This document shows, in pieces, positions 47,729-60,485 of a stretch of 64,000 nucleotides of DNA. How positions within the stretch are numbered: position 1 is the stretch's first letter; each line of letters begins with the position of its first letter. Below the pieces are notes generated by a model. That model had not been told where the DNA came from. It was given only the letters and a program-made list of their open reading frames with translations, and did no database searches. Source of the stretch: Catellatospora sp. TT07R-123. Lineage in GTDB: Bacteria; Actinomycetota; Actinomycetes; Mycobacteriales; Micromonosporaceae. The stretch covers positions 4,402,001 through 4,466,000 of the forward strand of contig NZ_BNEM01000001.1 of assembly GCF_018327705.1 (NCBI RefSeq), written 5' to 3'. The translations under genes and the position numbers were made by a program.

Positions 47729-48886
47729 TCACAGCCAGCCGGAGCGCCGGAACGAGCGGTAGATGCCGTACGACACGGCCAGGGCGAAGGCCATGGTCAC
47801 CGGGTAGCCGTAGCGCATGTGCAGTTCCGGCATGTACTCGAAGTTCATGCCGTAGACGCCGGTGATCGCGGTCCACGCCGCGGCCATACCGGCGTAGGCG
47901 GCGATCTTGCGCATGTCGTTGTTCTGGTCGACGGAGACCTGGGCCAGGCGCGCCTGCATGATCGAGATCAGCAGGTCGTCGTACCCGCCGACCTGCTCGA
48001 CCACGCGGGCCAGGTGGTCCTGGACGTCCCGGAAGTACTTGCGCAGCTCCTTGGTGATCTCCGGGGTGTCGGAGAGCATCGCCTGGAGCGGCCGCTGCAA
48101 CGGCAGCGCCGCGCGCTTGAACTCCACGAGCTCGCGCTTGAGCTGGTAGATGCGCTGCATCCGGCCGCTGGAGTCGCGGGAGAACACCGCCTCCTCCAGC
48201 ACGTCCACGTCCTGGCCGATGCCGTCGGCGGCCAGCACGTACAGGTCGACCACGTGGTCGAGCACCCCGTATGCCACCGCCCACGGGCCCTGGCGCAGCA
48301 GCTCGGGGCGGCTCTCCAGGAGCTCGCGGACCGGCCGGAGCCGGCAGGCGTTGCCGTGGCGCACCGAGATGACGAAGTCGGGGCCGATGAACAGCATGAT
48401 CTGCCCGGTCTCGACGACCTCGGAGGTGTCGGTCAGCTCCTTGTGCTCGACGTAGCGGGCGGTGCGCAGCACCAGGAAGTGCACGTCGCCGAACTGCTCC
48501 AGCTTCGGCCGCTGCCCGGCGCTGACCACGTCCTCGACCGCGAGCTCGTGCAGGTCGTACGCCTCGGCGATACCCGCCATCTGCTCGGCGTCGGGCGCGT
48601 GCAGCCCCAGCCACACGAACGCCCCCGGCGTGCGCTTGGCCTGCGCCAGCGCCTCGCGGTAGTCGCCCGTGGACGGCAGCCGCCGGCCCTGCTCGTAGAT
48701 GGCGCAGTCGACGATCGCGTCACGGCGCCCGCCCGGCTGGAGCGGGATGGCGGCCGCCTCGTCGGCGCCGAGCCCGATTCCCGAGACGAGCCTGCTCATG
48801 GCGCGCGCGGGGGCGCTGAACGCGCGGGTCAGGCGGTCGCCGTTGGAGGCGCGCCGGCCAGGTTCGTCCCGGATGTCGTCGACCAC
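47729..48886 (-). CDS. corA: CorA family magnesium/cobalt transporter
   Basis: 385 aa from a GTG behind AAGGGGG (MVDDIRDEPG). Large cytoplasmic N-terminal domain, then two C-terminal helices with the selectivity motif YGMNFEYMPEL at about 330-340. The periplasmic MPEL loop is the standard Mg form. Functions as a pentamer that admits Mg2+. Its upstream region (48887-49327) holds strong hairpins. Confidence 0.95.
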   Translation of the reverse strand: MVDDIRDEPGRRASNGDRLTRAFSAPARAMSRLVSGIGLGADEAAAIPLQPGGRRDAIVDCAIYEQGRRLPSTGDYREALAQAKRTPGAFVWLGLHAPDAEQMAGIAEAYDLHELAVEDVVSAGQRPKLEQFGDVHFLVLRTARYVEHKELTDTSEVVETGQIMLFIGPDFVISVRHGNACRLRPVRELLESRPELLRQGPWAVAYGVLDHVVDLYVLAADGIGQDVDVLEEAVFSRDSSGRMQRIYQLKRELVEFKRAALPLQRPLQAMLSDTPEITKELRKYFRDVQDHLARVVEQVGGYDDLLISIMQARLAQVSVDQNNDMRKIAAYAGMAAAWTAITGVYGMNFEYMPELHMRYGYPVTMAFALAVSYGIYRSFRRSGWL

Positions 48887-49020
48887 AGCTCGCCCCCTTC
48901 GTGCGGCCGCCGCTGCGGCGGCGACTCCGCTCGACAGGCTACGCGCCGCGGGCACCGCGCCATGCGGCCGAGGGCACCACCGGCCGCGCGTCCCGGGCGA
49001 CGGGGTCCAGATACGACGAT

Positions 49021-49118
49021 GGCGCCGGGTGGACGTGTCTGCCGCGGTCGGGGGGAGATGCGGCAGGTCCACCCGGCGCCGGAACGGCACCCGGGGTGGG
49101 GGGTTGGGTGACCGTTCC
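49021..49118 (-). promoter_or_regulatory. two adjacent strong hairpins in the corA leader
   Basis: GGCGCCGGGTGGAC (49021-49034) pairs perfectly with 49067-49080; inside it CTGCCGC pairs with GCGGCAG. Immediately beside it GGAACGG/CCGTTCC (49081-49087 with 49112-49118) plus ACCC/GGGT closes a second hairpin. They lie 135-230 bases before corA, on its transcript. It does not match the known Mg2+ riboswitch pattern by eye. Confidence 0.5.
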
Positions 49119-49279
49119 TTCTTTCATCGGGGGCGGGGCAAAGCTGTCGGCACGTAGTCGACGCGCCGGACGAATTGTGATCCACGGAACGCGGGCGGGG
49201 GAACCCTGCATGCCGACCCAGCCATTGTCAGAAATGCGACAGAAATCGGTCGGATAACCGAATCGGCCAATGGCTGCGA

Positions 49280-49319
49280 AACAGCCCGGCAGCGCGGTTC
49301 GACCGCGCGCCGGGCTGTT
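49280..49319 (-). terminator. terminator of the aminotransferase gene
   Basis: AACAGCCCGGC then A then GCGCGG pairs with CCGCGCGCCGGGCTGTT; 17 bp with one bulge and loop TTCGA. Confidence 0.85.
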
Positions 49320-49327
49320 CGGGGACG

Positions 49328-50440
49328 TCAGCCGCGTACGGCCTCGATGGCGTCGGCGAGCCGGCGCACACCTTCGTCGATCTGGTCGGCGGTGACCGCG
49401 CTGAACGCCAGCCGCAGCGCGCTGGTGCCGCCCTCCAGCAGGAAGTCGGAGCCCTTCACCACGGCCACGCCTCGCTCGGCCGCCGCGGGCAGCAGCTTGT
49501 CCACGTGCACGTCGGCGGGCAGCTCGATCCAGAGGAAGTAGCCGCCGTCGGGCTCGGTGAACTCGACGCCCGGGATGTGCTTGCGCAGCGACTCGGCCAG
49601 CACCGACGCCCGCTCGGCCAGCGCCGCGCTGACGGTCGCCACCGAGCGGTCGATGTCGCCGGAGCGGCAGAACTCGTAGACGATGCCCTGCGCCACCTGG
49701 CCGGCCGAGATGTAGAGGTTGGTCGCGTTGCGGGCGATGTCGTCGATGACCTGCTTCGCACCCACCAGGTAGCCCACACGCACGCCGGGGCAGACCGTCT
49801 TGGTGAACGAGCTCGCGTGCACGACCACGTCGGCCGCGTCGCCGCCGCCGAGCTTCGTCATCGACAGCATCGAGGGCAGCGCGTCGCCGCGGAAGCGGAT
49901 GTCGACGTACGGGTCGTCCTCGAAGATCGTGAAGCCGTACTCGACGGCCAGCTCGATCAGCTCGCGCCGCTTCGCCACCGACAGCGTGACGCCCGCCGGG
50001 TTCTGGTAGTTCGGGATGATGTGCGCCAGCGTCGGCCGCACCCCGGACTCCAGCAGCGCGCGCAGCTCGGCGGTGTCGACGCCGTCGGGCCGCACCGTGA
50101 CCTGGTGCACGTGCGCGCCGAGCGAGCGCAGGTTGAGCAGCGTCCGGTCGTAGGTCGGCCTCTCGACCACGACGTGGTCGCCGGGCTTCACGAGCTGGTT
50201 GAACAGGAACGCGTCGGCCTGCAGCGAGCCGTTCGTGATGAGGACCTGGTCGACGGCGACACCGTGCTTGTCGGCCACCCACTTGCGCAGCGGTGCGTAG
50301 CCGTAGGAGTTGCCGTAGGCGGTGAGGCCGGCCGGGTCGGCGGCGAAGGCGCGGACGGCCGCGGCGCTGAGACCCTCGACATCGACGATGTCCAGGCTCG
50401 GGGCGCCCCGGGCGAAGGAGATGAGCTGCTCGGCGGTCAT
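49328..50440 (-). CDS. PLP-dependent aminotransferase (fold type I, MocR/KAT-II-like)
   Basis: 370 aa from ATG 50440. No DNA-binding N-terminus. N-terminal SFARGAPSLDIVD, then YGNSYGYAPLRKWVADK; the PLP-binding lysine is in SFTKTVCPGVRVGY at about 208, preceded by EDDPYVDIRF with the pyridine-contacting Asp. The substrate is probably an aromatic or 2-oxo-adipate-type amino acid in the kynurenine aminotransferase group; not decided. 86 bases downstream of the CBS gene. Confidence 0.88.
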   Translation of the reverse strand: MTAEQLISFARGAPSLDIVDVEGLSAAAVRAFAADPAGLTAYGNSYGYAPLRKWVADKHGVAVDQVLITNGSLQADAFLFNQLVKPGDHVVVERPTYDRTLLNLRSLGAHVHQVTVRPDGVDTAELRALLESGVRPTLAHIIPNYQNPAGVTLSVAKRRELIELAVEYGFTIFEDDPYVDIRFRGDALPSMLSMTKLGGGDAADVVVHASSFTKTVCPGVRVGYLVGAKQVIDDIARNATNLYISAGQVAQGIVYEFCRSGDIDRSVATVSAALAERASVLAESLRKHIPGVEFTEPDGGYFLWIELPADVHVDKLLPAAAERGVAVVKGSDFLLEGGTSALRLAFSAVTADQIDEGVRRLADAIEAVRG

Positions 50441-50526
50441 GGCCACCAAGCGTAATCGGCCCGAAATGCGGGACACCCCCACCCACCTGCGTTCAGCCGG
50501 GCGGGTGGGGTCCGGATACCGGGAAA

Positions 50527-50937
50527 TCACACGTTGGCGGTTGCCTCCGCACGGCGCAGGGCCCACACCCGCATCAGGTCGCGTACGGAGATGATGCCGA
50601 GTATCTCGTCGCCGTCGAGGACGGCGAGGTGGCGGAACCCGCCCCGGGTCATCGCCATGGCGGCCTCCTCCAGACTCCAGTCGGGGGACGCGTACACCAC
50701 GTCCCAGGTGATGTGGCCTGCACACTGCTCCACGTCCGGGTCCAGGCCCGAACCGATGGCATTGAGGATGTCGCGCTCGGTCATGATCCCGAGTCCTTCG
50801 CCATCCGGATCGATCACGATCGCCGAGCCGACGCGGCGCATCGACATGAGCTGAGCCGCCTGGCGCAGCGTGTGCTGCGGACCAACCAGCAGCACCGGCT
50901 TGCTCATCGCCTCCCGCACCTGCATGGCATGCGTCAT
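50527..50937 (-). CDS. CBS domain pair protein
   Basis: 136 aa from ATG 50937 behind AAGGGG (a TTG two codons upstream is possible). Two CBS domains: AMSKPVLLVGPQHTLRQAAQ, with SAIVIDPDGEGLGIMTERDI; and VVYASPDWSLEEAAMAM, with HLAVLDGDEILGIISVRDL. Such stand-alone pairs sense adenine nucleotides and modulate partner enzymes. It is divergent from the 51128 operon, so it may regulate that pathway or the aminotransferase downstream. Confidence 0.9.
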   Translation of the reverse strand: MTHAMQVREAMSKPVLLVGPQHTLRQAAQLMSMRRVGSAIVIDPDGEGLGIMTERDILNAIGSGLDPDVEQCAGHITWDVVYASPDWSLEEAAMAMTRGGFRHLAVLDGDEILGIISVRDLMRVWALRRAEATANV

Positions 50938-51127
50938 CTGCAATCACCCCTTCGGAACGCAACCCCATTGAAACGCACCGTACGGACATCTTGGGGCAGG
51001 TTCGGGCAGTTCACAAGACTTGTCATGGCCGCGAGCGTGTGTATCCGTGCCAACTCCGCACCCGGGGGCGGGTCTGCCGTGCAGTAGCCTTCACCAGCGA
51101 CGAGACCCCCTCCCCGAAGGAGAAACC

Positions 51128-51877
51128 ATGATCGGCATGGTGCTGGCCGCCGGCGCCGGGCGGCGACTGCGGCCCTACACCGACACGCTGCCCAAGGCCC
51201 TGGTGCCGGTGGACGGGGACACCACGATCCTCGACATCGCGCTGGCCAACCTGGCCGAGGCCGGGTTCACCGAGGTCGTGATCGTGGTCGGCTACCGGGC
51301 CGAGGCCGTCGAGGCCCGCCACGCCGCCATGCAGGAGAAGTACGGCGTGACCATCACCCTCGTGCACAACGACAAGGCCGAGGAGTGGAACAACGCGTAC
51401 TCGCTGTGGCTGGCGCGCGAGCACTTCGCCCGGGGCGTGCTGCTGGTCAACGGCGACACCGTGCACCCGGTGTCGATCGAGCACACCCTCCAGGCCGCCG
51501 CCGCCGACGCCGCGTACGCCGACGCGGGCATCGTGCTGGCGGTCGACGACGTGAAGAAGCTGGCCGACGAGGAGATGAAGGTCGTCTTCGGCACCGACGG
51601 CCGCCTCGCGAAGATCACCAAGCTGATGGACCCGGCCACCGCGCACGGGGAGTACATCGGCGCCACCCTGATCCGGCCCGAGGCCGCCGACGCGCTCGCC
51701 GACGCGCTGCGCGCCACCTGGGAGCGCGACCCCAACCTCTACTACGAGGACGGCTACCAGGAGCTCGCCGAGCGTGGCGGCACCGTCCGGGGCGCCGCGA
51801 TCGGCAAGGTGGACTGGGTCGAGGTCGACAACCACGACGACCTCGCCCGGGCCCGGGAGATCGCATGCCACTACTGA
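51128..51877 (+). CDS. sugar/polyol-phosphate nucleotidyltransferase (LicC-like)
   Basis: 249 aa from ATG 51128 behind GAAGGAG. NTP-transferase fold: VLAAGAGRRLRPYTDTLPKA at 5-24 with K23, VNGD with D110 as a metal ligand, and EEWNNAYSLWLA at about 85-96, a block typical of the CTP:phosphocholine/phospho-polyol cytidylyltransferase branch. Near its end DNHDDLARA closes the fold. It should form CDP-X (or NDP-X) from a phosphorylated small alcohol. It overlaps the next gene by 13 bases, and the third overlaps the second by 14: one tightly coupled pathway. Confidence 0.88.
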   Translation: MIGMVLAAGAGRRLRPYTDTLPKALVPVDGDTTILDIALANLAEAGFTEVVIVVGYRAEAVEARHAAMQEKYGVTITLVHNDKAEEWNNAYSLWLAREHFARGVLLVNGDTVHPVSIEHTLQAAAADAAYADAGIVLAVDDVKKLADEEMKVVFGTDGRLAKITKLMDPATAHGEYIGATLIRPEAADALADALRATWERDPNLYYEDGYQELAERGGTVRGAAIGKVDWVEVDNHDDLARAREIACHY

Positions 51878-52935
51878 CCCGGTCGGTGCAGACCCCGCTG
51901 AGCATCGACGTACGCCGCGGGGCGATCGCCGCGCTGGGACCGCTGCTGGTCGACCGGCGCATCTCCGCGGGCGGCGACGTCGCGGTGGTGGTCGGCCCCG
52001 GCCAGGGCGAGCGCATCGCCGAACTGATCGCCCCGACCCTGGACCACGCGCTGGTCCTGCACGTCGAGGGCGGGACGGTCGAGTCGGCGCTGGCGCTGGG
52101 CGAGAAGCTACGCGGGCGCAACCTGGACGCCGTGGTCGGCATCGGCGGCGGCAAGACCATCGACACGACGAAGTACGCGGCCTCGCGATACGGCATCCCG
52201 ATGGTGGCCGTCGCGACCAGCCTGGCCAACGACGGCATCGCCTCCCCCGTCGCCACGCTGGACCACGACGGCGGCCGGGGCTCCTACGGCGTGCACATCC
52301 CGCTGGCGGTCGTGGTCGACCTCGACTTCGTCGAGCAGGGCCCGGACCGGCAGACCCGGGCCGGGGTCGGCGAGACGCTGAGCAAGATCAACGCGATCGC
52401 CGACTGGCAGCTCTCGAACCAGGTCACCGGCGAGCCGGTGGACGGCCTGGCCGTGGCGATGGCCCGCTCCGGCGCCGAGGCGGTGCTGCGCCACCCCGGC
52501 GACGTCACCGACGACGGCTTCGTGACGGTGCTGGCCGAGTCGCTGATCACCAGCGGCCTGGCCATGGCGATCGCCGGCACGTCCCGGCCCGCCAGCGGCG
52601 GCTGCCACGAGATCTCGCACGCGCTGGACATCCTGTTCCCCGGCACGGCCGGGCACGGCGAGCAGTGCGGCCTCGGGGCCCTGTTCTGCACGTACCTGCG
52701 GGCCTCGATCGACCCGGCGCAGCGGACCCGCTTCGACGAGATCAGCGCCTGCCTGAAGCGGCACGACCTGCCGCGCACACCGGCCGACCTGGGCCTGAGC
52801 AACGACGACTTCGCCCGCGCGGTGGAGTACGCCCCGCGTACCCGGCCCGACCGGTACACCATCCTGGAGCACCTGAACCTGGGCTACGAGCAGATCCGCG
52901 AGCGGGTGGGAGACTACGCCGATGTCATCGACTGA
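51865..52935 (+). CDS. iron-containing alcohol dehydrogenase family protein, glycerol-1-phosphate dehydrogenase-like
   Basis: 356 aa. NAD-binding GIGGGKTIDTTKYAA with Gly 94-96; ATSLANDGIASPVA near 118-130, as in AraM/EgsA enzymes. Metal site His in GGCHEISHALD (H248, H252) and AGHGEQCG (H264). The first metal Asp of the family lies in a GxGD motif; here GVGE (167-170) has Glu. AraM/EgsA reduce dihydroxyacetone phosphate to sn-glycerol-1-phosphate. Placed between a nucleotidyltransferase and a CDP-alcohol transferase, it probably supplies the phosphorylated polyol. Confidence 0.85.
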   Translation: MPLLTRSVQTPLSIDVRRGAIAALGPLLVDRRISAGGDVAVVVGPGQGERIAELIAPTLDHALVLHVEGGTVESALALGEKLRGRNLDAVVGIGGGKTIDTTKYAASRYGIPMVAVATSLANDGIASPVATLDHDGGRGSYGVHIPLAVVVDLDFVEQGPDRQTRAGVGETLSKINAIADWQLSNQVTGEPVDGLAVAMARSGAEAVLRHPGDVTDDGFVTVLAESLITSGLAMAIAGTSRPASGGCHEISHALDILFPGTAGHGEQCGLGALFCTYLRASIDPAQRTRFDEISACLKRHDLPRTPADLGLSNDDFARAVEYAPRTRPDRYTILEHLNLGYEQIRERVGDYADVID

Positions 52936-53617
52936 GCTGCACGCGGCGCCGGTGCGGCGCCCCTCCGCCGCCGACTTCTACGCCGTCAACCGCGGTGGCG
53001 GCCTGTTCTCCGAGGCGCTCAGCCAGCGGCTCGGCGCGGTCTTCGCGCTGATCGCCGAGCGCACCGGCCTCAAGCCGACCACGCTGACCCTGGCCAACCT
53101 GGTGCTCGGGCTGACCGTGTCGACGCTGCTGGTGGTGCGCGGGCAGGGCGGCCTGGTGCTGGGGCTGCTGGCGCTGGTCGGCTGGCAGGTGGCGTACTCG
53201 CTGGACTGCGCCGACGGGCAGCTCGCCCGGGTCACCAAGCAGGGCAGCCTGGCCGGGGCGCGCATCGACATCCTGTGCGACGTCGCGGCCCAGATCGGGC
53301 TGGTCACCGCGCTGGTGGCGGTCGCCAAGCCGCCGGTGTGGCTGGCCGCGCTGTTCGCGGGCTCGTGGATGGTCAACCTGGTGACCAGCGTGCTGGCCAC
53401 CAGCGACAAGGCCCAGTCGATGGTCACCTCGACCTCGCTGCCGGTGCGGCTGGTGAAGCTGGTCCGCGACTACGGCGCCGTGATCTTCACAGCCGGCCTG
53501 GTGCTGGCCTTCGCGCCCGCGCTGACCGTCTGGTTCATCGCCGCGTTCACCGTGGTCAACTTCGGCTTCCTCCTGGCCAGCATCGCCTTCACGGCCCGCT
53601 CGGCGTACCGCTCGTAG
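52922..53617 (+). CDS. CDP-alcohol phosphatidyltransferase family membrane enzyme
   Basis: 231 aa, six hydrophobic segments. The complete catalytic motif D-x2-D-G-x2-A-R-x8-G-x3-D-x3-D is at 95-120 (DCADGQLAR ... GARIDILCD), binding two metals and the CDP-alcohol. It transfers a phosphoalcohol from a CDP-activated donor to an acceptor or a lipid backbone to a polyol phosphate. With the two upstream enzymes it should complete synthesis of a phospholipid or phospho-polyol linkage. The acceptor is unknown. Confidence 0.9.
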   Translation: MSSTELHAAPVRRPSAADFYAVNRGGGLFSEALSQRLGAVFALIAERTGLKPTTLTLANLVLGLTVSTLLVVRGQGGLVLGLLALVGWQVAYSLDCADGQLARVTKQGSLAGARIDILCDVAAQIGLVTALVAVAKPPVWLAALFAGSWMVNLVTSVLATSDKAQSMVTSTSLPVRLVKLVRDYGAVIFTAGLVLAFAPALTVWFIAAFTVVNFGFLLASIAFTARSAYRS

Positions 53618-53641
53618 CGGAGGCGCACCTGCATCGCTCAG

Positions 53642-53693
53642 CCTTAGAACTGTACCTCTAAGAGGCGCGCCTCTTAGAGGTACAGTTCTAAGG
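53642..53693. promoter_or_regulatory. 52-bp perfect palindrome overlapping the ATPase start
   Basis: CCTTAGAACTGTACCTCTAA... is followed by its exact complement; all 26 positions match and the centre is GGCGCGCC. Each half contains TTAGA-N8-TCTAA (53645-53662 and 53673-53690), itself an inverted repeat, so two operator-like sites lie head-to-head. It ends on the G of the GTG start at 53693 and lies 25 bases after the phosphatidyltransferase stop. It could be an autoregulatory operator, a terminator, or both. Confidence 0.85.
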
Positions 53694-55138
53694 TGCTCAC
53701 GAAGCCTGAGGGGATGTTCGACCGGAACGCCGAGTGGACGTCGCTGGTCGGCTTCGCGACGTCCACCGCGCCCAGCGTCCGGTTCGGCGTGGTCAGCGGT
53801 CGGCGCCGCCAGGGCAAGACGTTCCTGCTGGACGCCATCGCCCGCGCCACCGGCGGCTTCTACTTCGCGGCCAGTGAGGACACCGAGCTGGAGTCGCTGC
53901 GCCGCTTCGGCCGGGCGCTGGGCGCACGCGCGGGCACCGGTGGCGAATTCCAGCTCGGAAACTGGGAAGAGGCGATCGAGCGGCTGTACGCCGTGGTGCC
54001 CGACGGGCTGATCGTCATCGACGAGCTGCCGTACCTGCTGGCGGCGAGCCCCGCACTGGCCTCACACCTGCAACGGGCCCTCGACCCGGGCGGCGTGGCC
54101 CGCGAGCGCGCATCGAAACTGCTCGTCTGCGGTTCCGCAATGTCGATCATGGGTGGCCTGCTGTCCGGCAACGCACCCCTGCGCGGCCGGGCCAGCCTGG
54201 AACTCGTGGTCCGGCCGATGGACTACCGGACCGCCGCCGAATTCTGGGGGGTCGCCGAAGAGCCGGAGCTGGCCGTGCTGCTGCACAGCATCGTCGGCGG
54301 AACCCCGGCGTACCGGCACGAGTTCGTTCACTCCGACGCCCCGGCCAAGACCGCCGACTTCGACGAGTGGGTGGTGCGCACCGTGCTCAACCCGGCGGTG
54401 CCGCTGTTCCGGGAGGCGCGATACCTGCTCGCCGAAGAGACCGGCGCCCGGGACGCGGCGCTCTACCACGGCGTGCTGGGCGCGATCGCGCTCGGACACA
54501 ACACCCGAGGCGGCATCGCCGGCTATCTTGAGCGGCCCTCGACCAACATCTCCCACCCGCTCACGGTGCTGGAGGACTCCGGCCTGATCACCAAGGAGGC
54601 GGACGCGTTCCGCACCGGCCGCTCGGTCTACCGCATCGCGGAGCCGCTGATCACGTTCTACTCGGCCGTGATGCGCCGCAACTGGAGCTTCCTGGAACGC
54701 GGCATGGCCGAGCAGGCCTGGCAGGCTGGTCGCGACACGTTCCGCTCGCAGGTGGTCGGACCCCACTTCGAGCAGCTCTGCCGGGAGTACGCCCTGCGCA
54801 GCGCGGTCGAGTTGTTCGGCGAGCCGCCGACCGAGGTGGCGGCCGGCACCGTCGCGGATCCGGCCGAGCGCACCCAGATCCAGGTCGACGTGGTGGTGCT
54901 CGGCACCGACGGCGCCGCGCTGTGCCTGGGCGAGGCCAAGTGGCAGCAGACCATGGGGCTGCCCCATCTCGACCGGCTGCGCCGGGCCCGGGACCTGCTC
55001 GCCGTGAAACGGGTCCGCACCGAGCGGGTGCGACTGGCCTGCTTCAGCGGCCGCGGGTTCACCGAGGAGCTGCGCCGGGCCGCCGCGGCAGACCCCACCA
55101 TCCTCCTGATCGACCTGCCCCGCCTCTACGGCGCGTAG
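53693..55138 (+). CDS. AAA family ATPase with C-terminal DUF234 nuclease-like domain
   Basis: 481 aa from GTG 53693 (ATG 53714 is an alternative start). Walker A GRRRQGKT at 36-43, Walker B GLIVIDELPYL near 108, a winged helix near 280-310 (STNISHPLTVLEDSGLITK), then DUF234: QIQVDVVVL and CLGEAKW near 400-421 give the D...ExK of a PD-(D/E)XK fold. This is the archaeal-ATPase/MNS clade, widespread and functionally unclear; a DNA-acting or toxin-like role is possible. It stands alone between the 52-bp palindrome and repeat copy 4. Translation of its start lies within the palindrome, so folding may block it. Confidence 0.9.
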   Translation: MLTKPEGMFDRNAEWTSLVGFATSTAPSVRFGVVSGRRRQGKTFLLDAIARATGGFYFAASEDTELESLRRFGRALGARAGTGGEFQLGNWEEAIERLYAVVPDGLIVIDELPYLLAASPALASHLQRALDPGGVARERASKLLVCGSAMSIMGGLLSGNAPLRGRASLELVVRPMDYRTAAEFWGVAEEPELAVLLHSIVGGTPAYRHEFVHSDAPAKTADFDEWVVRTVLNPAVPLFREARYLLAEETGARDAALYHGVLGAIALGHNTRGGIAGYLERPSTNISHPLTVLEDSGLITKEADAFRTGRSVYRIAEPLITFYSAVMRRNWSFLERGMAEQAWQAGRDTFRSQVVGPHFEQLCREYALRSAVELFGEPPTEVAAGTVADPAERTQIQVDVVVLGTDGAALCLGEAKWQQTMGLPHLDRLRRARDLLAVKRVRTERVRLACFSGRGFTEELRRAAAADPTILLIDLPRLYGA

Positions 55139-55147
55139 CAGGCTTCG

Positions 55148-55207
55148 TGCAGTTTCGGGGAACTGCACGAAAGCGGGCCGTGATTCCAGCACTTTCCCCG
55201 AAACTGC
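55148..55207 (+). repeat. dispersed double-hairpin element, copy 4
   Basis: TGCAGTTTCGGGGAACTGCA (one A shorter than the others), spacer with GATTCCA, GCACTTTCCCCGAAACTGC. 60 bp, between convergent genes where it may act as a terminator. Confidence 0.9.
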
Positions 55208-55232
55208 GGGAACAGCACGTCCCGCGCCCGAG

Positions 55233-56393
55233 TCAGGAGCGGCGCAGGTCCTCGTAGACGCCGATGAGGCGGTCCATGACCACGGACGGGTGGAAGGTCT
55301 GCTCGTAGCGGCGGCGGGCGGCCTCGGTGAGCGACGGGGCGAGCTTGACCGCGTCGGGCAGGGCCGCGGCCCAGTCGTCGACGGTCGGCGCGACCGCCAC
55401 CCCGGCGTCCCCGATCAGGTACGGGATGCCGCCCAGCGCGCTGCCGATCACGGCCCGGCCGGAGGCCAGCGCCTCGATGATCACCGTGGGCAGCACGTCG
55501 TGCCAGGTCGACGGGGCGGCGAACAGGGCCGAGGCGCGGAACGCGGCCCGTACCCCCTCGCGGTCCTGCGGGCCGAGGAACACCACGTCCGACCGCTGCG
55601 CGGCGGCCTGCTCGGCCAGGGTGCGCAGCTCGCCGTCGCCGACGATCCGCAGCGTGCCCAGCGAGCCGTCCGGGTGCCGCCGCCAGGCGTCCAGCAGCAG
55701 CCCCAGGCCCTTCTCCGGGGTCAGCCGGCCCACGAACAGCACGCCCTCCCCCGGCGGGGTCGGGGGGCCCGGGTCGTCGACGCCGTTGGGCTTGACCACG
55801 ATGTGCCCGTCCGGGATGCCGTAGTCGCGCAGGTGGTCGGCGATGTTGTCGGTGAGCGCGATGTACCGGTCGACCGAGCGCCAGGTCGGGCGGTGCACCG
55901 CCAGCGTGGTCGCCATGATCGCGCTCTGCGCGGCGGAGTCCCGGTAGCACCGGTGCTTGATCGCGGGCAGCGCGAACGCCTTGCCCCGGCACTCGTAGCA
56001 GGCCTGGCCGTCGCGGAAGTACAGGCCGGGCGCGCAGACCTGCCGGAAGTTGTGCACGGTCTGCACCACCGGCACCCCGTGGGCGTGCGCGGTCCGCACC
56101 ACCCAGGGCGACAGCAGCGGGTACGGGTTGTGCAGGTGCAGCACGTCCGGCCGCTCGGCCTTCAGCAGCCGGGCCAGGTCCCGCTGCGCGCCCGGCGCCC
56201 AGATGGGCGACAGCGGCAGCAGCGCCTTGCCGACGGGCGACAGTGACGGAATGTCGTCGGAGCTGCGCAGGAAGGGCAGCACCGTGACCCCGGCCGCGGT
56301 GAGCTGCGCCATCTCCTGGTCGACGATGACGTTCTCCCCCGAGGGCAGCTCGGAGCGGTACCGGTTGTGTGCGACGACGACTTTCAACGCCAT
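55233..56393 (-). CDS. family 4 glycosyltransferase
   Basis: 386 aa. GT-B fold: N-terminal NRYRSELPSGENVIVDQEM, a mid-protein CYECRGKAF with two Cys (possible metal or disulfide), the second-domain GVLFVGRLTPEKGLGLLLDAW near 219, and the retaining motif APSTWHDVLPTVIIEALASGR near 300 with E317-type Glu. It adds a sugar in exopolysaccharide or surface glycan assembly. Divergent from the DNA glycosylase gene with only 23 bases between starts, so both promoters are compact and transcripts are probably leaderless. Confidence 0.92.
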   Translation of the reverse strand: MALKVVVAHNRYRSELPSGENVIVDQEMAQLTAAGVTVLPFLRSSDDIPSLSPVGKALLPLSPIWAPGAQRDLARLLKAERPDVLHLHNPYPLLSPWVVRTAHAHGVPVVQTVHNFRQVCAPGLYFRDGQACYECRGKAFALPAIKHRCYRDSAAQSAIMATTLAVHRPTWRSVDRYIALTDNIADHLRDYGIPDGHIVVKPNGVDDPGPPTPPGEGVLFVGRLTPEKGLGLLLDAWRRHPDGSLGTLRIVGDGELRTLAEQAAAQRSDVVFLGPQDREGVRAAFRASALFAAPSTWHDVLPTVIIEALASGRAVIGSALGGIPYLIGDAGVAVAPTVDDWAAALPDAVKLAPSLTEAARRRYEQTFHPSVVMDRLIGVYEDLRRS

Positions 56394-56416
56394 GGGTGAA
56401 CGGTAGCGTTACGGTC

Positions 56417-57271
56417 GTGCCGGAGTTGCCTGAGGTGGAGGCCCTCGCCGCGTATCTGCGCGAGCGGGCCGTGGGTCAGCGCGTCGAGCGGGTCGACGTG
56501 TCGGCGATCAGCGCCCTGAAGACGTTCGACCCGCCCCTGTCGGCCCTGCACGGGCGGACGGTCACCGGCGCCGGGCGCCACGGCAAGTTCCTCGACCTCC
56601 AGCTCGACGAGCTGCACCTGGTGGTGCACCTGGCCCGCGCCGGGTGGCTGCACTACCGCGACGAGCTGCCCGACACCCTGCTCAAGCCGGGCAAGGGGCC
56701 GATCGCGCTGCGGGTGCGGCTGGGCGACAGGTCGGGCTTCGACCTGACCGAGGCCGGTACGCAGAAGAAGCTCGCCGCCTATCTCGTGACGGACGTGGCG
56801 CAGGTGCCCGGTGTGGCCCGGCTCGGGCCGGACGCGCTCAGCCTCGACCTGGCCGGTCTGGCCGGAGTGCTCAAGGACCGCAACGCCCAGCTCAAGGGCG
56901 TGCTGCGCGACCAGCAGGTGCTGGCCGGGGTCGGCAACGCGTACTCGGACGAAATCCTGCACACGGCCAAGCTGTCGCCCTTCGCGCGGGCCGACAAGCT
57001 CACCGCGGCGCAGCTGGAGGCGCTGCACGCGGCCATGCAGCAGGTGCTGACCGAGGCGGTCACCCGGTCGGTCGGCCAGCGCGCGGCGACGCTGAAAGCC
57101 GAGAAGCGGGCGGGGCTGCGGGTGCACGGGCGCGCGGGTGAGAAATGCCCGGTCTGCGGCGACGTGATCAGGGAAGTCTCGTTCGCGGACTCCAGTCTCC
57201 AATACTGCCCCACGTGCCAGACGGGCGGAAAGCCGCTCGCAGACCGGAGACTTTCCAAGCTCTTGCGCTAG
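56417..57271 (+). CDS. Fpg/Nei family DNA glycosylase
   Basis: 284 aa from GTG 56417; after removal of the first Met the catalytic Pro is followed by ELPEVEAL, the family's N-terminal nucleophile and Glu. H2TH: QVLAGVGNAYSDEILHTAKL at about 175-194. C-terminal zinc finger CPVCGD / YCPTCQTGG. It excises oxidised bases. The residue set beyond the start does not decide between MutM and Nei; the Gln-rich and QGGRTT-like differences (ADRRLSKLLR end) place it in the actinobacterial Fpg2-type branch. Confidence 0.92.
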   Translation: MPELPEVEALAAYLRERAVGQRVERVDVSAISALKTFDPPLSALHGRTVTGAGRHGKFLDLQLDELHLVVHLARAGWLHYRDELPDTLLKPGKGPIALRVRLGDRSGFDLTEAGTQKKLAAYLVTDVAQVPGVARLGPDALSLDLAGLAGVLKDRNAQLKGVLRDQQVLAGVGNAYSDEILHTAKLSPFARADKLTAAQLEALHAAMQQVLTEAVTRSVGQRAATLKAEKRAGLRVHGRAGEKCPVCGDVIREVSFADSSLQYCPTCQTGGKPLADRRLSKLLR

Positions 57272-57377
57272 TGTCACCGGGAGCCGACTTCGTATAGTGT
57301 CCCGGTCCTGGGGTGTTCGGACGCATCTGCGCACGGTGTCGCCGTGACCCCGGACAAACCATGCGAGACTGAACGTT

Positions 57378-59033
57378 GTGGGCGAACCTCGTCCTGCCGC
57401 ACGTTCGGCGCCGCAGGCTGCAGCACTGGCCGGTTCCGCCGGGCAGGAACGTGACGCACGGGAGGACCCAGGTGAGGTGACGACGAGCCTGAAGCACCCG
57501 AGCACGGCGCCCATCCGTTCGAACGTCCCGGATTACGTGGCGGACCGCTACGAACTCCCTCCGACGCCCAAGACCAACGGCGTGGCACGGAGCGCGTTCG
57601 CCCGGCCCACGGCCCGGCGCGCCAAGTGGCACCGGCCATACATCCTGTGCCTGGTCGTCGCCGACTTCCTCTGCGCGGTCCTGGCCAGCTATACGGCGAT
57701 CTCCCAGTTCGAGACGCAGCGGGTCACCGCCGGCTTCGACGGGCGCACCAACTTCTTCCAGCTCGTGGCGTATGTCGGCCTGCCCATCGGCTGGCTGCTG
57801 CTGCTGTGGGCCAACGGCGCCTATGACAGACGCGTCATCGGCCTGGGCACCGACGAGTTCAAGCGCGTCTTCCGGGCCACCATCGCGGTCGGCGCGACCG
57901 TGTCGTTCCTGGCCTTCGCGTTCCAGAAGGACCTGTCGCGCGGCACCGTGGGCATCGTCGTGCTGGGCGCGATGGCGTACATCTTCGTGCTGCGGCTGAT
58001 GCTGCGGCGCGTGCTGTACGTGATCCGCCGCCGGGGGCGCCTGGCCACGTACCGGATGCTGCTGGTGGGCTCGCTGCCGGAGACGCTGTTCGTGTACAAG
58101 GTCGTCTCCCGCAGTCCCCGGGCCGGCCTGGTGCCCGTCGCGATCCACCTCTCCGAGCACCTGCCCGCCTCGCGGCGGGCGCAGGCGCCGATCCCGGTGC
58201 ACTACGGCCGCGACCTGGTCGACCTGGTGCACGAGCTGCGCGCCGACACGATCGCGGTGTGCGGCTCGGCCGGGGCCGAGCCCGACGAGCTGCGCCGCCT
58301 GGCCTGGCAGCTGGAGGGCACCGGCATCGACCTGGTGGTCGCGCCGCAGCTCACCGACATCGCCGGACCGCGCGTGCACATCCGGCCCATCGAGGGCCTG
58401 CCGCTGCTGCACGTGGAGGAGCCGAAGCTCTCCGGTGTCGCCTGGCTGGCCAAGAACCTGCTGGACCGGGTCGCCGCCGCGCTGGGCCTGATCGTGCTCT
58501 CGCCGCTGCTGCTGCTGATCTCGCTGGCCATCTCGATCACCGACCGGGGCCCGGCGTTCTTCCGCCAGCTGCGCGTCGGGCACGAGGGCCGGGTGTTCAA
58601 GGTGTGGAAGTTCCGCACCATGTACACCGACGCCGAGGAGCGCAAGAGCAAGCTGGAAGCCCAGAACGAGGGCGACGGCATGCTCTTCAAGATCCGCGAC
58701 GACCCGCGGGTCACCCCGGTCGGCCGGTTCCTGCGGGCCAGCTCGATCGACGAGCTGCCCCAGCTGATCAACGTGGTCAAGGGCGAGATGTCGCTGGTCG
58801 GGCCGCGGCCGCTGCCCGCCGACGACGGCGACTACCTCGGCGACGTGCGGCGGCGGCTGCTGGTGCGGCCCGGCATGACCGGCCTGTGGCAGGTCTCCGG
58901 CCGCTCGGACCTGAGCTGGGACGAGGCGGTCCGGCTGGACCTCTACTACGTCGACAACTGGTCCCTGGCCTACGACCTGTCCATCCTGTGGCGGACGGTC
59001 GGGGTCGTGCTCCGGCGCAAGGGCGCCTACTGA
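57378..59033 (+). CDS. exopolysaccharide polyprenyl glycosylphosphotransferase (WbaP/CpsE type)
   Basis: 551 aa. Long polar N-terminus; a GTG at 57477 would remove the first 33 residues, and which is used is unclear. Five membrane helices, a CoA-binding-like Rossmann domain (DTIAVCGSAGAEPDE), then the Bac_transf domain: VFKVWKFRTMYTDAEERK, SSIDELPQLINVVKGEMSLV, GPRPLP, and RPGMTGLWQVSGRSD with the Asp/Arg set. It moves a hexose-1-phosphate to undecaprenyl phosphate, starting a surface polysaccharide. Follows the glycosylase gene by 107 bases; TATAGT at 57293-57298 may be its -10. Confidence 0.92.
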   Translation: MGEPRPAARSAPQAAALAGSAGQERDAREDPGEVTTSLKHPSTAPIRSNVPDYVADRYELPPTPKTNGVARSAFARPTARRAKWHRPYILCLVVADFLCAVLASYTAISQFETQRVTAGFDGRTNFFQLVAYVGLPIGWLLLLWANGAYDRRVIGLGTDEFKRVFRATIAVGATVSFLAFAFQKDLSRGTVGIVVLGAMAYIFVLRLMLRRVLYVIRRRGRLATYRMLLVGSLPETLFVYKVVSRSPRAGLVPVAIHLSEHLPASRRAQAPIPVHYGRDLVDLVHELRADTIAVCGSAGAEPDELRRLAWQLEGTGIDLVVAPQLTDIAGPRVHIRPIEGLPLLHVEEPKLSGVAWLAKNLLDRVAAALGLIVLSPLLLLISLAISITDRGPAFFRQLRVGHEGRVFKVWKFRTMYTDAEERKSKLEAQNEGDGMLFKIRDDPRVTPVGRFLRASSIDELPQLINVVKGEMSLVGPRPLPADDGDYLGDVRRRLLVRPGMTGLWQVSGRSDLSWDEAVRLDLYYVDNWSLAYDLSILWRTVGVVLRRKGAY

Positions 59034-59047
59034 TCCTGCAAGACGTC

Positions 59048-59084
59048 GAACGGCCGGTCACCCCCAGCGGGTGCCCGGCCGTTC
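59048..59084. terminator. convergent terminator
   Basis: GAACGGCCGG with an inner CACCC, and GGGTG with CCGGCCGTTC; 15 paired bases with two single mismatches, between the polyprenyl transferase and Uma2. Confidence 0.8.
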
Positions 59085-59098
59085 CGCTTCTGCGGCTC

Positions 59099-59656
59099 TC
59101 AGCCGAAGACCTCGGCCAGATTCAGCTCGAACGGGAAAGGGTCAGCCCCGCGCAGGATGCCCGAGTGCTTCTGCTCGGTCAGGTAGCCCATCGACCCCGG
59201 CTGTGTCAGCACCAGCACGTCCTGGGTGCGCGCGTCAACGATCCAGTACTCGGGGACGCCTGCCACGGCGTAGCCGTACCGCTTGAGCACGAGGTCATTG
59301 CCGGGGTTGCTCGGCGATACCACCTCGATGACCAGCTGCGCCGCTGGTGGCGGCAGCGCGGGCAGCGCAGTCCCGAGCAGCGCGGCGTCGAAGACGACCA
59401 GGTCGGGGATGAAGTAGGAGCTTCCGTCTCGGCGCAGCACGCCGAGGTTCTCCCCGACCACGAGATCGTCAGGCGCCTGCCGCTCAAGCGCCCGGCGGAT
59501 GCGGTGCAAGACGGTGAAGTGCGGCATCGGGGGTGGTGGGGTCACGATCAGGCTCCCGTCGAAGATCTCGTACCGGTAGCCGTCGTCGGGCGTGTCGAGG
59601 AGGTCCTCGAACTGCCAGGCGCGCAGCGGCTGGGGCCGGAGCAGTGGATGGGTCAT
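59099..59656 (-). CDS. Uma2 family (DUF820) putative restriction endonuclease-like protein
   Basis: 185 aa from ATG 59656 behind GGGGTGA. Complete Uma2 motif: YFIPDLVVFDA with Asp near 94, LVIEVVSPSNPGNDLVLK with Glu near 117 and Lys near 129, then GVPEYWIVDART. Closer to the family consensus than the protein at 62-625. Target unknown; no adjacent methylase. The 59657-59807 gap carries the divergent promoter region of this gene and the response regulator. Confidence 0.88.
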   Translation of the reverse strand: MTHPLLRPQPLRAWQFEDLLDTPDDGYRYEIFDGSLIVTPPPPMPHFTVLHRIRRALERQAPDDLVVGENLGVLRRDGSSYFIPDLVVFDAALLGTALPALPPPAAQLVIEVVSPSNPGNDLVLKRYGYAVAGVPEYWIVDARTQDVLVLTQPGSMGYLTEQKHSGILRGADPFPFELNLAEVFG

Positions 59657-59807
59657 CGTTGTCACCCCAGTGGTCTATCGAAGCCGTCTGACATCTCCAG
59701 GGTGCCCCATCCACAGGCCGTTAAGAAGGTGCCCTTCCCTACGTGCGCACAAGTTCTTCACATCGGGGGCTGAGGGTCTGCACAGGTGAGGGCTACAGTC
59801 CCGTGAC

Positions 59808-60485
59808 ATGAACGAGCGTCGGGTCCTGGTTGTCGAGGACGACCCCACCATCGCCGGGTCCGTCATCGCGCGGCTGCGGGCGGAGGGGTTCGCCGTCGAC
59901 CACGCGGGCACGGGGCCCGCCGCGGTCGAGGCAGCCGCGCGGCTGCGACCGGACCTGGTCGTGCTCGACCTGATGCTGCCCGGGTTCGACGGGCTGGAGG
60001 TGTGCCGCCGCATCCACGCGCAGCGGCCGGTGCCGGTGCTCATGCTGACCGCCCGCGACGACGAGAACGACCTGCTGGTCGGGCTGGCCGTGGGGGCGGA
60101 CGACTACCTGACCAAGCCGTTCTCGCTGCGGGTGCTGGCGGCGCGGGTGCACGCGCTGCTGCGCCGGACCGAGCGCACCACCGCGCCGGAGGCGCCGATC
60201 AGGCTGGGTCCGCTGGAGATCAACCGGACCGAGCGCCGGGTGCGCCGCGACGGCGTCGAGGCCCACCTGACCCCGACCGAGTACGACCTGCTGGTGTACC
60301 TGGCCGAGCGGCACCGCGCGGTGCTGCCCCGGGAGCGGCTGCTGGCCGAGATCTGGGGCTGGGCCGAGGGCTTCGGGACCCGTACCGTGGACTCGCACAT
60401 CAAGGCCCTGCGCCGCAAGATCGGCGCGGACCTGATCCGGACCGTGCACGGTGTCGGCTACGCGCTGGAAGCCGAGAACACATGA
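59808..60485 (+). CDS. OmpR/PhoB family response regulator
   Basis: 225 aa. VVEDDPTIAGS with acidic pair about 9-10, phospho-acceptor in VVLDLMLPGFDG near 52, DDYLTKPFSL near 100. C-terminal winged helix: LTPTEYDLLVYLAERHRAV and RTVHGVGYALE. Overlaps the kinase start by 4 bases (ATGA), so the two are coupled. Confidence 0.95.
   Translation: MNERRVLVVEDDPTIAGSVIARLRAEGFAVDHAGTGPAAVEAAARLRPDLVVLDLMLPGFDGLEVCRRIHAQRPVPVLMLTARDDENDLLVGLAVGADDYLTKPFSLRVLAARVHALLRRTERTTAPEAPIRLGPLEINRTERRVRRDGVEAHLTPTEYDLLVYLAERHRAVLPRERLLAEIWGWAEGFGTRTVDSHIKALRRKIGADLIRTVHGVGYALEAENT

Follow-up and report, generated by a model that had tools for sequence, protein, structure and literature searches.

What do three overlapping genes in the actinomycete Catellatospora sp. 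TT07R-123, encoding a nucleotidyltransferase, a dehydrogenase and a membrane phosphotransferase, make together? The genes lie on the plus strand of a 64,000-nucleotide stretch of DNA (contig NZ_BNEM01000001.1, positions 4,402,001 to 4,466,000), which was analyzed as a whole and is referred to here as the window; coordinates are those of the window unless another locus is named. P0001 (51128–51877, 249 aa) is a LicC/PntC/IPCT-like nucleotidyltransferase (NTase), proposed to be a cytidine triphosphate (CTP):polyol-phosphate cytidylyltransferase; P0002 (51865–52935, 356 aa) is an AraM/EgsA-like dehydrogenase, proposed to reduce a ketose phosphate i.e. dihydroxyacetone phosphate (DHAP); and P0003 (52922–53617, 231 aa), a predicted integral membrane protein, is a cytidine diphosphate (CDP)-alcohol phosphotransferase with a complete catalytic motif. 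All three genes have ATG starts, and their order and overlaps are as described in a first-pass annotation of this DNA, with exactly 13 bases shared by the NTase and AraM genes (51865–51877) and 14 by the AraM and phosphotransferase genes (52922–52935). Each protein passes the Pfam cut-off for its family (NTP_transferase, 64 bits against 21.2; Fe-ADH_2, 105.6 against 28; CDP-OH_P_transf, 35.7 against 22). The trio is a real, widely conserved module of the CDP-polyol type, composed of known types of enzyme. Our favored explanation, to which as a whole we give a probability of about 0.5, is that this module feeds a surface glycan or glycolipid that bears phospho-polyol units.

In the proposed pathway, the AraM-like enzyme would reduce a ketose phosphate, most likely DHAP to sn-glycerol-1-phosphate (G1P); the LicC/PntC-like enzyme would then join the polyol phosphate to CTP to form a CDP-polyol, with CDP-1-glycerol as the likeliest one; and the membrane phosphotransferase would move the phospho-polyol from cytidine monophosphate onto a membrane acceptor. 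The product here would be a lipid-linked glycan or glycolipid at the cell surface, carrying the phospho-polyol. The parts of this explanation are not equally firm: we regard it as highly probable that the trio acts as a CDP-polyol module, consider a surface glycan or glycolipid to be slightly favored as the product, and see the chances that the polyol is G1P as evenly balanced.

The arrangement cannot be due to chance, because it is conserved across genomes; the window alone would not have excluded this. Two samples were searched, 296 genomes from the phylum and 150 from the family, the threshold being E ≤ 1e-30 for AraM in the phylum and E ≤ 1e-40 for the NTase in the family. AraM matches were found in 32 of the phylum genomes, 14 of them (including the window) at 49–100% identity and the other 18 at 37–43%. 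In the family, AraM and the NTase were each found in 112 genomes, the two sets being identical, and the two genes were adjacent in 111, the exception being G317 (coordinates read by eye). The P0003-type phosphotransferase was present in 131 family genomes i.e. all 112 that carry AraM and 19 others, with none in the remaining 19; in 88 of the 112 it was no more than about 300 bases from AraM (also read by eye). Among the 109 loci L051–L159 (29 from the family-sample search and 80 from a further search, with one duplicate, L052 and L080 being identical), the NTase was directly upstream of AraM on the same strand in every case, and a CDP-alcohol phosphotransferase was directly downstream in 108, Kineosporia L150 being the exception. 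These loci were chosen as the best-scoring ones and are therefore uninformative on remote homologues, which were represented by 20 phylum loci of up to 20 kb each, hand-picked from the AraM matches. Here the NTase was adjacent to AraM in 18 loci, one gene away in L044 and absent in L042, and a CDP-alcohol phosphotransferase adjoined AraM in 14; L049 and L050 encode a protein with a weak P0003 match 7–8 kb from AraM.

The tightest unit is the NTase–AraM pair, and the phosphotransferase is looser. The CDP-polyol pathway put forward in the first-pass annotation survives as a conserved three-enzyme module, but its core is the pair, and the phosphotransferase varies in type and also occurs without the pair. 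The homologues are not mostly apart, which that annotation had named as a finding that would have spoken against it, though the phosphotransferase and AraM are separated in a minority of family genomes, discussed below. The closest named relative, Catellatospora sp. KI3 (L080), has an AraM 93% identical to that of the window; further away in the same class, AraM was present in all eight sampled genomes of genus g8, which is probably Streptomyces judging from the gene order it shares with named Streptomyces loci. Of the 49 family loci L051–L099, 47 have a start codon permitting the 13-base overlap (exceptions L068 and L072), and crude dN/dS values of 0.09–0.49 across the trio genes, calculated for the window against four congeners, fit purifying selection.

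P0002 scored 241.5 bits against PRK00843, the model for glycerol-1-phosphate dehydrogenase (G1PDH), and 62.9 bits against the next best NCBIfam model, that for glycerol dehydrogenase. As the curated cut-off for PRK00843 is 413 bits, we class P0002 as G1PDH-like, not as a proven G1PDH. As judged from an alignment with the archaeal structure 4rgq, it shares with G1PDHs of the AraM/EgsA kind (Bacillus subtilis AraM, archaeal EgsA) the Fe-ADH_2 domain, the motifs, the two metal-binding His residues and Arg241. In an active-site alignment of 130 sequences (20 phylum loci, 109 loci and the window; one row is a duplicate, without which counts drop by one where affected), Arg241, Pro242, His248 and His264 were conserved in all 130, and Asp123 and Gly124 in 129, the remaining sequence being gapped there. 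By contrast with P0002, PDB entry 3ce9, named as a glycerol dehydrogenase, has Ser where P0002 has Arg241. The metal ligands of G1PDH are, we presume, Asp, His and His (the metal- and phosphate-binding residues being assigned as in the family); P0002 has both His residues, with the Asp replaced by Glu170. This replacement, remarked on in the first-pass annotation, is real, but position 170 is Glu in 16 of the 130 sequences and Asp in the other 114, with Glu in all 10 congeners of the family sample and in L080. We therefore rejected Asp-to-Glu as a hallmark of the family, and treat it as a feature of the lineage. A 2016 phylogenetic study already places actinobacterial sequences among the G1PDHs (PMC5059525).

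The best PDB sequence match of P0001 is LicC (1jyk). Its predicted structure, with a predicted local distance difference test (pLDDT) score of 96.3, was compared with known structures by VIA-align, and the top match was the cytidylyltransferase PntC (6pd2; Z 29.5, root-mean-square deviation (rmsd) 2.1, 234 aligned residues), with IPCT (4jd0; Z 26.8) and LicC (Z 26.2, rmsd 2.3, 224 aligned) in lower rows. Since we treat rows within 1 Z as ties, only PntC stands out; the LicC fold is present in P0001, though the LicC score ties with many sugar nucleotidyltransferases. P0001 therefore resembles LicC and PntC in its fold and nearest structures, but no choline or phosphonate gene was recognized beside it. 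A phosphonate pathway, as the likeness to PntC might suggest, is unsupported: the best match to phosphoenolpyruvate mutase in the organism's own genome reached 64.7 bits against a cut-off of 319.55. As a separate observation, the displaced AraM of G317 (L190) is close to genes that by eye resemble a putative phosphonate cluster.

The motif pattern that we take to define CDP-alcohol phosphotransferases, DxxDGxxARx8GxxxDxxxD, is complete in P0003, as first reported, and in all 50 of the window-type homologues called in L051–L159. In the structural comparison (model pLDDT 85.1) the nearest matches were AF2299 (4o6m; Z 18.9, rmsd 3.5, 215 aligned) and the fused IPCT-DIPPS protein 4mnd (Z 18.5), followed by cholinephosphotransferase 1 (CPT1) and phosphatidylinositol-phosphate synthase (PIPS; Z 15.2); by the same rule for ties, only the AF2299/4mnd group stands out. 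The best PDB sequence match was CPT1 (E 0.0031). The best NCBIfam model was that for archaetidylinositol phosphate synthase, at 24.6 of the required 180 bits, with the PIPS model at 17.1 of 170 and the IPCT-DIPPS model NF041135 at 22.2 of 580, and the PgsA, ClsA and PssA models gave no match to P0003 at E ≤ 0.01. P0003 is thus unclaimed by the models for phosphatidylinositol-phosphate, phosphatidylglycerol, cardiolipin or phosphatidylserine synthases; a clean assignment to the phosphatidylinositol-phosphate or cardiolipin synthases would, according to the first-pass annotation, have been damaging. The organism's own genome has six CDP-alcohol phosphotransferase genes: PgsA (137.1 bits, cut-off 109.1), ClsA (270.5, cut-off 240), PIPS (236, cut-off 170), a PssA-like gene (92.7, cut-off 107), one without family assignment, and P0003. 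The idea that P0003 is an ordinary phospholipid synthase was rejected, as it scores far below the models whereas the genome's own PgsA, ClsA and PIPS pass theirs. We drew nothing from a tree of the CDP-alcohol phosphotransferases (10 F3 rows and two F7 pieces were dropped because they failed the motif pattern), since 16 of its 28 inner branches were open and long branches met. Elsewhere in this genome, at 1303–2124 of L164, is a further CDP-alcohol phosphotransferase gene that no NCBIfam model claims.

Because the NTase–AraM pair is nearly inseparable while its partners vary by lineage, we regard the pair as the supplier of a donor and the remaining proteins as its consumers. Here the partner is the window-type phosphotransferase; in Streptomyces there are two other phosphotransferases, a GT2-type glycosyltransferase and an exporter of the TagGH type; five fetched family loci from other genera have an ABC-2 permease, and distant loci a sugar transferase together with a phosphodiesterase. 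In the window, the consumer side is accompanied by a GT4-type glycosyltransferase gene (55233–56393, minus strand) and a polyprenyl glycosylphosphotransferase gene (Bac_transf, EPS_sugtrans; 57477–59033, plus strand), which makes a lipid-linked surface glycan or glycolipid the likely product. These companions are syntenic: of 21 long AraM-bearing loci, 16 had GT4 no more than 9 kb from the phosphotransferase, and 16 had the sugar transferase at such a distance; of the five long loci without them, L086 and L092 are short contigs. The position is also mostly constant in the 14 family loci in which the window-type phosphotransferase has no AraM next to it (nine from genomes lacking AraM and five with AraM elsewhere), with CBS and aminotransferase genes on one side and GT4, Fpg and sugar-transferase genes on the other (CBS in 12, GT4 in 12, sugar transferase in 11, aminotransferase in five). 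An NTase match was beside the phosphotransferase in seven of these 14 slots, six being 27–30% identical to P0001 and that of L189 67%. Polysaccharide-flippase matches, weak and below cut-off, were found near the phosphotransferase in L180, L181 and L183, with none for L185, and Wzy_C (O-antigen-ligase-like) was above cut-off in L180, L185 and L196 and below it in L181.

Where the NTase–AraM pair is displaced, an ABC-2 permease gene, matching the ABC permease of Streptomyces, was found beside it in all five fetched loci (L179, L186, L188, L192 and L193) other than that of G317, whose displaced AraM has no such permease adjoining; in a Pfam check of three of the loci two passed the cut-off and L179, which also carries an acyltransferase-SGNH protein, was just under it. 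In the distant loci L047–L050, genes for a type I phosphodiesterase and for a sugar-transferase homologue of the 57477–59033 gene lie near NTase–AraM (assigned by Pfam for L048 and by family clustering for the rest). With glycan, flippase-like, Wzy_C and ABC-2 genes as the neighbors of the slot and of the pair, the product would be placed at the surface. The lipid or membrane acceptor proposed in the first-pass annotation can therefore be narrowed, as the surroundings favor a surface glycan or glycolipid as likelier than a bulk phospholipid, an argument from guilt by association.

In Micromonosporaceae the phosphotransferase is of the window type. Loci from Streptomyces, Streptosporangiales, Nocardiopsis and Actinomadura have a different set of consumers, with another type of phosphotransferase beside AraM. 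The fourth motif Asp was missing from all 58 of the AraM-adjacent phosphotransferases of this kind called in L100–L159 (His in 30, Ala in 28), and judging from the motif the Streptomyces-type enzyme is perhaps changed or inactive. An extra upstream protein in those lineages had the complete phosphotransferase motif in 46 of 53 called pieces, but not in the other seven. In L033 (11582–13279), this upstream CDP-alcohol phosphotransferase is joined to DUF5941, and its N-terminal part goes unrecognized by Pfam. Of 198 phylum genomes, 10 encode DUF5941, nine of them no more than 1 kb from AraM and the tenth (G108) about 15 kb away; the window's own genome does not have it. The usual Streptomyces order continues with GT2 and an ABC permease and ATPase (the TagGH-type exporter), then squalene/phytoene synthases, an amine-oxidase-family protein and a polyprenyl synthase; we take the squalene/phytoene synthase gene set to be the hopanoid cluster. 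The accessible part of a survey published in 2026, which covered 929 Streptomyces genomes, describes a group consisting of araM, NTase, CDP-alcohol phosphotransferase, GT2, tagG, tagH and crtB, and ties it to teichoic acid and secondary metabolism through synteny, with no tested function in that part (PMC13118837). The NTase and AraM of that group are homologous to those of the trio, and our Streptomyces loci have the same gene order; it differs in that the AraM-adjacent phosphotransferase is of another class and a second, usually complete one is located upstream. The description of the trio as undescribed must therefore be qualified: the synteny is in print for Streptomyces, but beyond it we found neither this enzyme combination nor an assigned function for it in the open-licence PubMed Central literature. 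The same literature yielded no paper on DUF5941 and none joining Micromonosporaceae with teichoic acid and glycerol phosphate, and the portion seen of one paper on Catellatospora and teichoic acid held nothing on Catellatospora polymers.

Several observations weigh against our favored explanation. For the dehydrogenase, these are its score below the curated G1PDH cut-off; the combination of Glu170 with Lys174, a position that is Lys in six of the 130 sequences, Thr in two and Asn in 122; and position 247, Cys or Asp in 123 of the 130 (Cys247 in the window) where archaeal 4rgq has Glu. In addition, a halophile protein annotated as a G1PDH is reported to have turned out to be a glycolaldehyde reductase, without appreciable activity toward either G1P or DHAP (PMC9700705). 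For the NTase, GalU-, RmlA- and GlmU-type enzymes are structurally near-equal to IPCT and LicC, so that CTP stays a putative substrate. For P0003, Foldseek gave no match at E ≤ 0.001 (best 2.7e-3). For the module as a whole, the phosphotransferase and AraM are apart in 24 of the 112 family genomes (15 of genus g209, five of g202, and G307, G308, G317 and G353), although in G391, among these 24, they are on separate contigs that may adjoin each other; and 19 family genomes carry the P0003-type phosphotransferase without AraM or a P0001-type NTase. The points on the dehydrogenase, together with the mannitol-dehydrogenase-family gene that follows the NTase–AraM pair in L045, could also mean that the same module handles another polyol i.e. 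that the ketose phosphate reduced is a different one, or the substrate is a ketone without phosphate, and a CDP-polyol other than CDP-glycerol is made. We consider this a serious but minority possibility, as among NCBIfam models P0002 is closest by far to G1PDH and its Arg241 and two metal His residues are invariant. An archaeal-type ether lipid, in which G1P would go into prenyl ether lipids, as it does in Bacillus, is in contrast very improbable: AraM homology is all that speaks for it, and it leaves the NTase beside AraM in 109 of 109 loci unexplained, P0002 having a nucleotidyltransferase as its neighbor instead of a role in making prenyl ethers, and there is no prenyltransferase among the three overlapping genes (no genome search for GGGPS/PcrB was made).

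The remaining alternatives concern the fate of the CDP-polyol. TagD/TagF and TarI/TarJ are teichoic-acid donor pathways, TarJ/TarI pairing a reductase with a cytidylyltransferase, and the trio is alike in logic (polyol phosphate, cytidylyltransferase, transfer of phospho-polyol) but belongs to different protein families and, if the polyol is G1P, would have sn-1 and not sn-3 stereochemistry. The NTase–AraM pair might nevertheless supply CDP-glycerol in trans to the two TagF-type (PF04464) proteins of the organism's own genome (L202 8919–10142 and L203 9197–11398; 381 and 363 bits). The genes called around both have no P0001 match, the TagD model TIGR01518 had no match at E ≤ 0.001 anywhere in this genome, P0001 included, and none of the 150 family genomes was above its cut-off (controls were matched in 12 of 14 and above cut-off in two). 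However, relatives without AraM equally lack a TagD above cut-off, so there is no complementary pattern, and with 0 of 150 genomes passing we rejected TagD–AraM complementarity as proof of CDP-glycerol supply. Weaker TIGR01518 matches in 110 of the 150 genomes, up to 89.2 bits, mean that a diverged TagD is possible in some, and PF04464 enzymes may take other donors; supply in trans is therefore rather unlikely. A Kennedy-type route, in which CDP-1-glycerol and diacylglycerol would give phosphatidylglycerol or a related lipid of normal head-group configuration, as a second way to phosphatidylglycerol, is less probable again. It would suit CPT1 and LicC as the best PDB sequence matches of P0003 and P0001, and G1P has the configuration of the phosphatidylglycerol head group, but the genome's own PgsA passes its cut-off, AF2299 and DIPPS outrank CPT1 in structure, and glycan enzymes are among the slot companions. 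It is the same structural neighbors, along with the archaetidylinositol-phosphate and IPCT-DIPPS models as the best for P0003 and its cousins, that suggest a soluble osmolyte formed from CDP-polyol and polyol phosphate, like the di-inositol phosphate or diglycerol phosphate of hyperthermophiles. The IPCT-DIPPS system for di-myo-inositol phosphate does combine a cytidylyltransferase with a CDP-alcohol phosphotransferase, but the trio consists of separate proteins, its polyol would come from an AraM-type reductase and not from inositol-phosphate synthase, and all such family scores are far under their cut-offs (49.9 of 580 bits for P0001 against NF041135). As no phosphatase is among the three overlapping genes, the neighbors are glycan-type, and such solutes are known from thermophiles, we rank this route slightly below the Kennedy-type one.

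If the favored pathway does run through G1P, its stereochemistry would not be the archaeal one envisaged in the first-pass annotation. An archaeal membrane backbone needs G1P carrying the chains, whereas CDP on a small polyol would donate the phospho-polyol as a head group or polymer unit. Bacterial phosphatidylglycerol ordinarily carries phospho-1'-sn-glycerol as its head group, and an sn-glycero-1-phospho unit is also found in lipoteichoic acid, so that claim was overdrawn: a G1P route would give the normal bacterial configuration. A CDP-1-glycerol pathway would still be new even without an archaeal lipid. It would explain why bacteria outside Bacillus keep G1PDH genes, and the source of sn-1 phosphoglycerol units in the envelopes of actinobacteria would become open to direct tests. 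More tentatively, actinobacteria could have a widespread, undescribed route from AraM-made G1P through CDP-1-glycerol to a surface glycan linked to a lipid. Such a route would mirror TagD/TagF in stereochemistry without being homologous to it, and would be a large bacterial source of G1P that is not for archaeal lipids.

Around the trio, no RNA element reached the gathering score at 48000–60000, and no promoter-like site was found at 50850–53800, an interval with one terminator-like match on the minus strand where 0.6 were expected. Directly 3' of the trio is a perfect 50-base palindrome (53643–53692), the arm of which has no second exact copy within the window, and which ends just ahead of the gene starting at 53693. 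That gene (ATPase_2/DUF234; 53693–55138) lies between the trio and GT4, and looks like a decaying accessory insert, because a 57-aa piece of it remains at the same place in KI3.

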